DNA of 31,630 nt, taken from assembly GCF_007678255.1 (NCBI RefSeq), contig NZ_VEED01000032.1:1-31630 (forward strand), in the 5' to 3' direction. The DNA is from Bacillus sp. X1(2014) (GTDB lineage Bacteria; Bacillota; Bacilli; Bacillales_B; DSM-18226). A program made the translations under genes and the position numbers. Numbering within the stretch: the first letter of the stretch is position 1; every line of letters begins with the position of its first letter. This document shows, one piece after another, positions 4,256 through 30,370 of the stretch. The notes below the pieces were generated by a model. It saw only the letters and a list, made by a program, of their open reading frames with translations, did no database searches and was not told the origin of the DNA.

Positions 4256-6379
4256 ATGTTTTCAGTTGCCAAAGAAAAAGTAAAACCAATTATTTCAGTG
4301 GACGTGGATGAAAGTGAAATAGTTTTTCAATCAACCTTAAATAACCTTAAAGAACCCTTTTTATTTTTAAAAAGACAAAATCATTTATTTGCGTATGTCA
4401 TGCTTGAAAACAATAATAAAGAGCATGCCTCGATTGAATCATTACTTGAACAAGCAAAATCTCTAGATAGCATCTGCCATCTTAGTGAACAAATCTCTTT
4501 GCCTGCGTTGTTCCAAATTATTGGCGAACCTTTTGCGATTATTAGAGATGTGGATGGTAATCCAGCTGGTTACATTAGCAGAGAAGATGTTCTTGCTGAG
4601 CTTTTTAAACAGGAAAATAAAAGTGTCGACTTACTTAAAATTATTCTAACCTCGATTCCGATGGGCATTTTTGTATTGGATAAAGAAAAGCGAATTATTA
4701 ATTATAATGAAGCTGGTTTAAAAATGATTAGATCGACCGCAGAAAAGGTTATGAATCTTCCAGCAGGAGAAATTTTTAGCCGCACCCATCTTGAACAGGT
4801 TTTTTCCACCGGTAAGACGCTTCTTAACCATTTGGTCATCAAGAATGAAATTGGGATCCTCGTCGATTATAGCCCTATCTTGAACTATGAGAATGAAGTC
4901 GATGGAATCATCATTGTTGCCCAGGATTTGCCAATGGTCGAAGAAATGGCTATGGAAATAGAATATATTAAAGATTTAAATAAGGACCTGAATGCGATTT
5001 TGTCTAGTATTTATGATGAAATTCTCGTGGTGAATAACAAAGGAGAGCTAATCAGGTTTAGTGAAAACATTATCCAAGATTTCTGGAAAGTTGATTTAAA
5101 AGAGCTGATTGGAAAGAATATTCTTGAACTTGAAGACCAGGGGCTGTTTACACCTTCGGTCACAAGACTTGTATTGGAGAAAGGAAAAAAAGTCTCTGTA
5201 GTACAAGAAACCAAAGCTGGGAGAAAAATTCTTGCCGTCGGAAATCCCGTCTTTAATGATCAAAATGAACTTGACCGGATTATCATTGCATCACGCGATA
5301 TTACCGAAACCACACGATTAAAAAGTGAATTGCAGGAAATGAAAAAGATATCAGAACAATATAAGAAGGAATTGGATGATTTTAAGAGTAAGGACCGCTT
5401 TTTGAAAAAACTCATTTATTGTAGTCCGAAAATGGAGAAGGTTATTAATCAGGCCAAGAAAATTGCTGATTTTTCCTCCACAGTACTTTTGAACGGCGAA
5501 TCTGGGGTCGGAAAAGAAGTAATTGCTCAAGCAATCCACCAATTAGGCAAACGCCAGGCGAAGCCCTTTCTTAAATTAAATTGCGGGGCAATTCCAGAAA
5601 GTTTACTCGAAAGTGAACTATTTGGATATGCGAAGGGATCTTTTACCGGTGCTGATAAAAATGGAAAAGAAGGCTACTTTAAACAAGCAGATGGTGGTAT
5701 TTTATTTCTAGACGAAATCGGTGAGATGCCAATCCATTTGCAGGTGAAACTATTACGAGTTCTTCAGGAGCAGGAAGTTATTCCGATTGGCAGTACAACC
5801 CCCATTAAGGTGAATGTGCAGATTATTGCAGCTACGAATAAAAAATTAGAAAAAATGGTTGAGGAAGGGAAATTCCGTGAGGATTTGTTTTATCGCTTGA
5901 ATGTCATACCGATACATATCCCGCCCTTAAGGGAAAGGACAGAGGATATTTCGCTGCTTGCCTTTCATTTCCTCCAACAATTGAATGAGAGATATGAGCG
6001 GAATTATCATCTCACTCCTGACGCTATTAATGTATTAGAGTTTTATCCTTGGCCGGGTAATGTCAGGGAACTTCAAAACATTATTGAAAGATTAGTAGTC
6101 ACGGCCGAACATCCGTCGATTGATGCGGAGTTCGTTAGCCAATTTTTATCCACGGGCTTGGAGCATAAAAAGATGAAGCCAGTCATTACAAGGGTCATTC
6201 CATTACAGGAGGCTATTGATCATGTCGAGGAGCAGTTAATTGTGATGGCAATGAACCAATACAAAACGACAACAAAAGCAGCAAAAGCGCTAGGAATCAG
6301 CCAGTCATCTGTTAGTAGAAAGTATCAAAAAATAGTAACTGAGAAAAATATAAAAATGGAAAACCTATCACCCTTTTAA
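4256..6379 (+). CDS. Sigma-54-dependent activator with CBS-like, two PAS, AAA+ and Fis-type HTH regions
   Basis: A 707-aa bacterial enhancer-binding protein. Residues 1-120 look like a CBS-type sensory segment (ending GNPAGYISREDVLAEL); PAS-like regions lie at about 125-225 and 245-350; a coiled-coil linker at 352-385. The AAA+ domain (about 390-630) has Walker A GESGVGKE at 414-421, the sigma-54 contact loop GSFTGA at 461-466 (Ser for the commoner Ala) and Walker B FLDE with Asp486-Glu487. A Fis-type helix-turn-helix (AAKALGISQSSVSRKYQ) lies at about 668-692. Overall layout recalls B. subtilis BkdR/RocR-type activators. It has its own terminator and lies between the operons with -24/-12 promoters, so it very probably activates them. 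The inducer (putrescine, GABA or another) is not known. Confidence 0.93.
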   Translation: MFSVAKEKVKPIISVDVDESEIVFQSTLNNLKEPFLFLKRQNHLFAYVMLENNNKEHASIESLLEQAKSLDSICHLSEQISLPALFQIIGEPFAIIRDVDGNPAGYISREDVLAELFKQENKSVDLLKIILTSIPMGIFVLDKEKRIINYNEAGLKMIRSTAEKVMNLPAGEIFSRTHLEQVFSTGKTLLNHLVIKNEIGILVDYSPILNYENEVDGIIIVAQDLPMVEEMAMEIEYIKDLNKDLNAILSSIYDEILVVNNKGELIRFSENIIQDFWKVDLKELIGKNILELEDQGLFTPSVTRLVLEKGKKVSVVQETKAGRKILAVGNPVFNDQNELDRIIIASRDITETTRLKSELQEMKKISEQYKKELDDFKSKDRFLKKLIYCSPKMEKVINQAKKIADFSSTVLLNGESGVGKEVIAQAIHQLGKRQAKPFLKLNCGAIPESLLESELFGYAKGSFTGADKNGKEGYFKQADGGILFLDEIGEMPIHLQVKLLRVLQEQEVIPIGSTTPIKVNVQIIAATNKKLEKMVEEGKFREDLFYRLNVIPIHIPPLRERTEDISLLAFHFLQQLNERYERNYHLTPDAINVLEFYPWPGNVRELQNIIERLVVTAEHPSIDAEFVSQFLSTGLEHKKMKPVITRVIPLQEAIDHVEEQLIVMAMNQYKTTTKAAKALGISQSSVSRKYQKIVTEKNIKMENLSPF

Positions 6380-6543: not shown

Positions 6544-6559
6544 TGGCACGATTCTTGCA
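6544..6559 (+). promoter_or_regulatory. Sigma-54 promoter of the putrescine catabolic operon
   Basis: TGGCACG-ATTC-TTGCA is a perfect consensus -24/-12 element. The predicted start near 6570 lies about 29 nt upstream of the ATG at 6599, which rules out the in-frame GTG at 6572 as the translation start. Confidence 0.93.
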
Positions 6560-12373: not shown

Positions 12374-12426
12374 AAAAAGAACAAGCCATGTAGTAGGAAA
12401 CCTACCTAAATGGGCTTGTTCTTTTT
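12374..12426. terminator. Bidirectional terminator between gabD and the selenoprotein gene
   Basis: AAAAAGAACAAGCC (12374-12387) pairs perfectly with its complement at 12413-12426, with an inner GTAGG/CCTAC helix in the loop. A-rich on one side and T-rich on the other, so it can serve both convergent genes. Confidence 0.85.
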
Positions 12427-12973
12427 AATGTGTATTTAAAATGGATAAGATAGTATCTATGGAAGCATGATCAGCTGGCTCAGTATCGATGTGTTTCCAA
12501 ATTACCTTTCCCTTATCATCATAAATCCAAGTTCCACCTTGAATATAGATATCATGGGTTTTCATTGCTTTTTGGACAAGCTTTTTCTGGGCTTCGTCCT
12601 CTGGCAAAAATGCCTTTGACCCATGTTTTAAGTAGGCAGTTGCTGCCTGTAAAAGCAGTCTCCACTTAGGCATTGTCTGGTGGCCCATTTCACGATAAAG
12701 TTCCCTTTTTGGATCTCCATATATCGTATAGGGGAAGGGTCCAAATACTTGAACAAATTGTTCTAAATATGCCTGGATGGATGGGGTTATGACATGGACT
12801 TGATAGCCTGTCGACTCTAATTCTTCATACCTCTCACGCAACTGCGTAAGCATTTCTCGACAAACTGGTCAGCCAGGGTGTCTAACAAAGACAACGACGC
12901 TTTTCTGATTTTTAATGATTTCTTTCAAGGTTTGTTTATCGGCTGTAAATGGTTTTTCTAATGTGACTGCCAT
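12425..12973 (-). CDS. Probable selenoprotein: AhpC/TSA (peroxiredoxin/thioredoxin-like) protein with UxxC motif
   Basis: Read through a single in-frame TGA at 12871-12869, this gene encodes 182 aa. The N-terminus, with the thioredoxin-fold beta strand VVVFVRHPG, runs straight into Sec35-Pro-Val-Cys38-Arg-Glu-Met, the redox-active site of AhpC/TSA-like proteins that normally reads CPxC. The remainder continues the fold (YQVHVITPS, then GGTWIYDDKGKVIWKH). Homology on both sides of the TGA, a selenocysteine exactly at the redox position and a hairpin just downstream make selenocysteine insertion much likelier than a nonsense mutation. The start is set at the second of two adjacent ATGs (12973), 5 nt after GAGGTGA; 12976 is the alternative. 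It probably reduces peroxides or disulfides. The Sec machinery (selA, selB, selD, tRNA-Sec) is not in the window. Confidence 0.85.
12833..12871 (-). promoter_or_regulatory. Bacterial SECIS-like element with its UGA codon
   Basis: On the minus strand the UGA (12871-12869) is followed after 18 nt by CUUACGC-AGUU-GCGUGAG: a 7-bp stem (one G-U pair) with a 4-nt apical loop holding G at its second position. The UGA-to-loop distance is 25 nt, inside the 16-37 nt range described for bSECIS elements. The stem lies within the coding sequence, as expected in bacteria. Confidence 0.72.
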
Positions 12974-13013
12974 CATTCTCACCTCGGTGTGTTAAATAAA
13001 TTATTTTCTTATA

Positions 13014-13064
13014 AAATTTAAGTCGTGCACGATTAAATTTATAGCAATTTAATAAGAGTGTCAA
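13014..13064 (-). promoter_or_regulatory. Promoter and palindromic operator of the selenoprotein gene
   Basis: On the minus strand a perfect -35 TTGACA (13064-13059) is followed after 17 bp by TAAATT, or after 15 bp by TATAAA. The -10 region overlaps a large inverted repeat: AAATTTAA (13014-13021), G, the perfect palindrome TCGTGCACGA (13023-13032), TTAAATTT (13033-13040). A repressor there would block initiation; the form suits a MarR-type redox regulator, but the factor is not identified. The same element lies about 125 bp upstream of the divergent HAD gene. Confidence 0.6.
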
Positions 13065-30270: not shown

Positions 30271-30277
30271 CAAATAA

Positions 30278-30350
<73 letters not shown>

Positions 30351-30370
30351 AAAATATTGGTACAAGAAAA

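Follow-up and report, generated by a model that had tools for sequence, protein, structure and literature searches.

The minus strand of the window (the whole 31,630-nt stretch of DNA analysed in this study) carries a gene that, judging from its conservation, almost certainly encodes a 182-aa selenoprotein, in which the UGA at codon 35 would be read as selenocysteine (Sec) by way of a bacterial SECIS (bSECIS) hairpin. Selenocysteine insertion at this codon, as proposed in a preliminary description of the window, is supported by the conserved TGA, the conserved hairpin and the co-occurrence of the gene with the Sec machinery.

Gene structure and signals

The UGA-interrupted frame is real: on the minus strand, the frame 12973-12425 begins with ATG, contains a single TGA (12871-12869) and is open until the TAA at 12427-12425. 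The earlier reading of an extension upstream through one TGA to an ATG with a ribosome binding site was borne out (GAGGTGA at 12985-12979), as was the expectation that standard annotation would yield only a 142-aa fragment, the ORF starting at the ATG at 12853. A second ATG is present at 12976; the start at 12973 is favoured because a relative that is 83% identical (L001) has AAG at the position of the other ATG. The terminator scan found nothing, and the inverted repeat downstream of the gene was not reported by it. The features of the locus are:

12425..12973, minus strand: predicted gene for a peroxiredoxin-like selenoprotein (PF13911/PF00578), 182 codons followed by TAA (frame reading, Pfam, TGA conservation)
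12869..12871, minus strand: TGA predicted to be read as selenocysteine, codon 35, motif HPG-U-PVC (TGA in the window and 49 full-length loci)
12860..12862, minus strand: Cys38 codon, UxxC partner of Sec35 (Cys in 49/49 sequences, window included)
12833..12850, minus strand: bSECIS-like hairpin with a 7-bp stem and an AGUU loop, the loop 25 nt after the UGA (folding, covariation, locked codons)
12979..12985, minus strand: Shine-Dalgarno-like GAGGTGA, 5 nt 5' of the ATG at 12973 (GAGGTG likewise precedes the start in several relatives)
13036..13064, minus strand: sigma-70-like promoter TTGACA-17-TAAATT, 10/12, a weak candidate (1 found vs 3.2 expected in shuffles)
12377..12423, unstranded: inverted repeat between two convergent genes, candidate bidirectional terminator (seen in the sequence)
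12425..12853, minus strand: 142-aa ORF of standard gene calling, active site absent (codon 41 is ATG in 10/49 sequences)

Conservation of the TGA codon

Homologues with Cys or Sec at codon 35 were sought in three samples: 100 relatives (match at E 0.001), 397 genomes of the order (E 1e-20) and 398 genomes of the phylum (E 1e-15). Matches were found in 15 of the 100 relatives, nine of which contained full-length homologues (48-83% identity) with exactly one TGA each, while the other six contained decayed pieces (G009, G031) or weak matches of 23-29% identity (G058, G085, G094, G019). In the order, 69 of the 397 genomes matched, and all 69, from 26 genera, had an in-frame TGA; it was the only stop in 68 of them, the exception being a partial match with an additional TAG (G235). 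The codon was read directly in the window and in 48 of 50 loci tried, those in which a motif pattern was found (P fixed, Cys or Ser allowed), and was TGA in every case; 39 of these 49 sequences are distinct, and this direct reading covers only part of the order matches. Of the two loci without the pattern, L049 nevertheless has TGA at the motif and L052 is a decayed copy with an unrecognisable 5' part. Only one of the 398 phylum genomes matched, a member of the window's own family. Within the sampled genomes, the protein is restricted to the order and, as far as the codon indicates, nearly always a Sec form.

Values of pN/pS over the 22 codons before the TGA ranged from 0.18 to 0.68 in nine pairs (0.49 for L002 and 0.68 for L005), compared to mostly lower values of 0.12-0.29 after it. 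By this measure, the codons upstream of the TGA are under purifying selection. The preliminary description had named a genome free of sel genes, with TGC or TGT in related strains and decay of the upstream part, as the sign of a nonsense mutation or sequencing error; the relatives instead carry sel genes and keep the TGA and a conserved upstream part.

The weak matches include two further candidates. L013 (in G094, 24% identical) and L015 (in G019, 29%) contain GTW-U-PNC and a lipoprotein-like TYT-U-GLC, respectively, each with its own TGA at the site and, on visual inspection, a possible short hairpin after it. SelB and tRNA-Sec are present in both genomes, and the two are probable additional UxxC selenoproteins. 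Two other distant relatives have Cys at the site by eye, L014 (G085, 27%; SWCPVC) and L012 (G058, 23%; YYGCSLC); G058 has both SelB and tRNA-Sec over the cut-off and G085 has neither.

A conserved hairpin downstream of the TGA

The 7-bp hairpin with an AGUU loop beginning 18 nt after the TGA was located as first described (CUUACGC-AGUU-GCGUGAG, 12850-12833, minus strand). The limits for bSECIS elements given in the available part of PMC13188914 are a loop of 3-9, a stem of 4-16, a G within the first two loop bases, a spacing of 16-37 nt and an energy of <= -7.5. According to a purpose-written script, the hairpin falls within all of them (loop 4, stem 7, spacing 25, -8.3 kcal/mol), in agreement with its initial identification as a bSECIS hairpin with a G in the first two loop bases. 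The window contains 1190 TGA triplets, 16 of which are followed by a hairpin within these limits and 11 by one at least equally stable. Only two of the 1190 lie in a frame open for at least 30 codons before and at least 100 after, and the TGA at codon 35 is the only one of these with such a hairpin. The fold energy of the hairpin region is unexceptional (z -1.29 and -1.31) and would not by itself have revealed the element; the case for a SECIS is made by conservation.

Among 38 distinct sequences, standard pairs occupy 98.1% of 266 cells and 5/266 cells are unpaired. Both members of one stem pair differ in three sequences, where A-U has become G-C. The covariation score (0.156) exceeded those of all 500 shuffles (mean 0.107), while two of five covariation measures, both-side-changed pairs and further pair types, were each reached by 198 of the 500. 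RNAalifold recovered the same helix. The codons beneath the hairpin are also unusually fixed: Gln44 is CAG and Leu45 is TTG in 39/39 distinct sequences, and codon 46 is only CGT or CGC. At other conserved columns, Leu and Arg make varied use of their six codons, and most other conserved columns show near-background codon entropy. The fixed codons at 44 and 45 and the restricted codon 46 therefore indicate that selection acts on the RNA. At gathering thresholds, Rfam matched only a tRNA in the window.

Distribution of the selenocysteine machinery

The preliminary description called selenoproteins uncommon in Bacillaceae, and 3 were counted in Bacillales in 2006 according to the available part of PMC1794560. 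The supposed rarity does not extend to the machinery in the order, where SelB was found in 179 of the 397 genomes and tRNA-Sec in 180. Both were present in 69/69 carriers of the gene, compared to 110 (SelB) and 111 (tRNA-Sec) of the 328 non-carriers (Fisher 2e-28 and 3e-28, respectively, values that ignore shared ancestry). By genus, SelB was found in 26/26 carrier genera and in 40 of the 109 others.

The proposed search for selA, selB, selD and selC recovered all four in relatives of the window strain, the genomes that it covered. Of 13 genomes inspected for SelA and SelD, 12 had both over the cut-off, including all nine full-length carriers among the 100 relatives, and eight of these nine had SelA, SelB, SelD and tRNA-Sec. 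The ninth, a 720-contig draft (G044), has tRNA-Sec and no SelB over the cut-off. The window strain presumably has sel genes of its own, given that, in the genus to which the nearest genome belongs, 58/60 genomes have SelB over the cut-off and 59/60 have tRNA-Sec. One member of the genus (G051) has no SelB, tRNA-Sec or SelD over the cut-off and only weak SelA pieces, one of them broken by stops, and has probably lost selenocysteine use. All 12 genomes with SelD over the cut-off (e.g. G080, G063, G021) have one in-frame TGA in the gene; selD is therefore probably a selenoprotein gene too.

Database proteins and alternative readings of the TGA

The protein search found 163 proteins, the best 120 of which were examined, including the window's own 142-aa ORF (P0002). 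Among these matches, 114 of the other 119 are 130-156 aa long and start past the Sec codon; since these relatives lack the active site, function is not guessable from the database records. The remaining five are longer, four with W at the site and one (P0055) with Cys. A search with P0055 as the query gave 20 proteins, none of them another long form, with P0122-P0125 judged on length alone.

That the TGA is a nonsense mutation or sequencing error within what is otherwise an ordinary Cys protein has a negligible probability in light of an in-frame TGA in all 69 matches from 26 genera, its position at the motif in 49 loci, the single close Cys form among the best 120 of 163 proteins, and the purifying selection on the upstream codons. 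The predominance of short database forms (114/119, the window's own ORF excluded) would be expected if the true start were an internal codon past the TGA, giving a protein of about 140 aa; codon 41, however, is ATG in only 10/49 sequences and Tyr in 30, and the frame upstream of it is conserved as protein and holds three strands and half the motif in the structural model. Translation from an internal start is thus highly improbable as the whole explanation, and may at most give an additional product.

Reading of the UGA as tryptophan, or general readthrough, is about as improbable. The W in the four database proteins (P0003, P0021, P0034, P0036) would fit it, but these come from a single source and probably reflect gene calling with genetic code 4. 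Against tryptophan are the two of 25 main genes picked in the window that end in TGA, the presence of SelB and tRNA-Sec in all carriers of the order sample, the selection on the hairpin, and the alignment of the site with a Cys of a CxxC protein. Read error, nonsense mutation, internal start and tryptophan were accordingly rejected on the basis of TGA conservation, upstream conservation, the Sec machinery and the hairpin, in favour of selenocysteine. As a separate observation, entries with Trp at a Sec site, such as these four, could be mined for selenoproteins.

Protein fold and redox centre

Read with Sec, the 182-aa product matches PF13911 (49.7 bits, cut-off 27), PF00578 (44.4 bits, cut-off 26) and PF08534 (39.5 bits, cut-off 26.6). 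A UPVC or UPIC motif is present in 49/49 sequences (the window and 48 loci). AlphaFold2 predicted a confident thioredoxin-type fold (pLDDT 91.4) with a helix starting at residue 36, just after Sec35. Human prostamide/PGF synthase, the closest relative with a solved structure, topped both fold lists, its Z tied with those of peroxiredoxins; its CxxC aligns with U35-x-x-C38, Sec35 taking the place of the N-terminal Cys. In the Bcp-type peroxiredoxin 2cx3, Sec35 aligns with a Ser/Thr three residues before a Cys that we take to be peroxidatic, and Cys38 aligns with that Cys. The earlier placement of the TGA at a resolving-motif residue was therefore wrong, as the alignments put Sec35 at the N-terminal position of a UxxC pair. 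As modelled, the protein belongs to the peroxiredoxin-like 2 (AhpC-TSA_2) type, with a thioredoxin fold and a Sec35-Cys38 pair. This pair is probably the whole redox centre because the window protein and 40/49 sequences have Cys38 as their sole Cys.

In the proposed mechanism, the downstream hairpin would act as the SECIS element and SelB would deliver Sec-tRNA to the UGA at codon 35. Sec35 would attack and reduce a peroxide or disulfide and would then be joined by Cys38 in a selenenylsulfide, which a thioredoxin- or bacillithiol-type system would reduce again. We infer Sec incorporation, the roles of Sec35 and Cys38, the substrate and the reductant; incorporation is very probable, and the mechanism is the most likely one.

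Gene neighbourhood and gene loss

The nearest genome (G001) encodes the flanking HAD-like protein at 96% identity and lacks the selenoprotein gene: alignment extends from window position 13037 upwards and over 12465-12377, which includes the terminator-like repeat, with the interval between the two absent. G031 retains the 3' part (12602-12371) and G009 a frame-broken 3' part. All three genomes retain SelB and tRNA-Sec. In these three cases, the only ones seen, the gene was thus lost through deletion or decay, with no change to Cys.

Across the neighbourhoods of the window and 21 loci, the HAD-like gene adjoins in 10/22, including those from the genus of the window. Some of the loci with the HAD-like gene have neighbour clusters 9 and 14 in common with L043 (Bacillus dakarensis); Rossellomorea-type loci have a different neighbour set. 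No gene is common to all 22 neighbourhoods, and an operon is not suggested. In a search for mobile carriage, there was no match in 72,556 plasmid and 50,697 phage records.

According to the available part of PMC13188914, nearly all selenoproteins have Cys homologues. Close Cys forms of this protein number one among the best 120 of 163 proteins and none among the 69 genome matches, and their scarcity makes the family a direct test of Sec function beyond that of Cys. It is possible, though held with slightly less than even confidence, that this is a Bacillaceae-type selenoprotein subfamily in which Sec is practically irreplaceable, so that lineages delete the gene, even with the Sec machinery still in place, instead of swapping to Cys. 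If so, the subfamily would serve as a natural test of the need for selenium in some redox enzymes of spore-formers.

Other features of the window

Exact sigma-54 (-24/-12) consensus sites occur on the plus strand at 2207-2222, before a glutamate-dehydrogenase-like gene (2259), and at 6544-6559, before an aldehyde-dehydrogenase-like gene (6572); a site with one mismatch (531-546) precedes a permease-like gene (705), and a sigma-54-activator-like gene is located at 4256-6379. The names of these four genes were assigned from the look of the sequences. Allowing up to two mismatches, the scan gave 20 matches compared to 14.6 expected, a number reached by 9/100 shuffles, and the two exact matches stand out. 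The sole RNA gene found in the window is a tRNA-Ala (GGC) at 30277-30351 on the minus strand.

Comparison with known selenoproteins

The available part of a recent catalogue (PMC13188914) gives UxxC or UxxU for Prx-like thiol:disulfide oxidoreductase selenoproteins (PF00578), UxxC for a redoxin (PF08534) and UxxS for a peroxiredoxin-like family (cd02970); a term search of that part for 'Bacill' gave no match. The window protein resembles the Prx-like UxxC/UxxU subfamily of this catalogue in its AhpC/TSA-type domain, UxxC motif and single Sec, a likeness drawn from the description and not from comparison with the representative WP_010940744.1, but differs in matching PF13911 best. PF13911 is the family of the peroxiredoxin-like UxxS selenoproteins in the available part of PMC9312934, so the window protein shares its Pfam family (AhpC-TSA_2) with the cd02970 selenoprotein and differs from it in having UxxC. 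Judging from titles, the beginnings of abstracts and openly accessible papers, none of the publications found deals with this family in Bacillaceae, and term searches within the available parts of PMC5330540 and PMC12013277 gave no match.

Among NCBIfam models, the best match is SelL/SelL-related (NF040769; residues 9-178, E 1e-28), which is also matched by all 10 members of A1. The score of 100.1 bits is below the curated cut-off of 120, and the motif is UxxC compared to the UxxU of SelL. Human prostamide/prostaglandin F synthase (9us9/9usa, presumably PRXL2B) differs in being eukaryotic and having CxxC, and is 19-23% identical in the aligned parts. Classical 2-Cys peroxiredoxins have PxxxTxxC and a separate resolving Cys, whereas the window protein has Sec at the T position and, as in 40/49 sequences, Cys38 as its sole Cys. 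By its motif and family matches, the protein is a UxxC member of an already known kind of selenoprotein.
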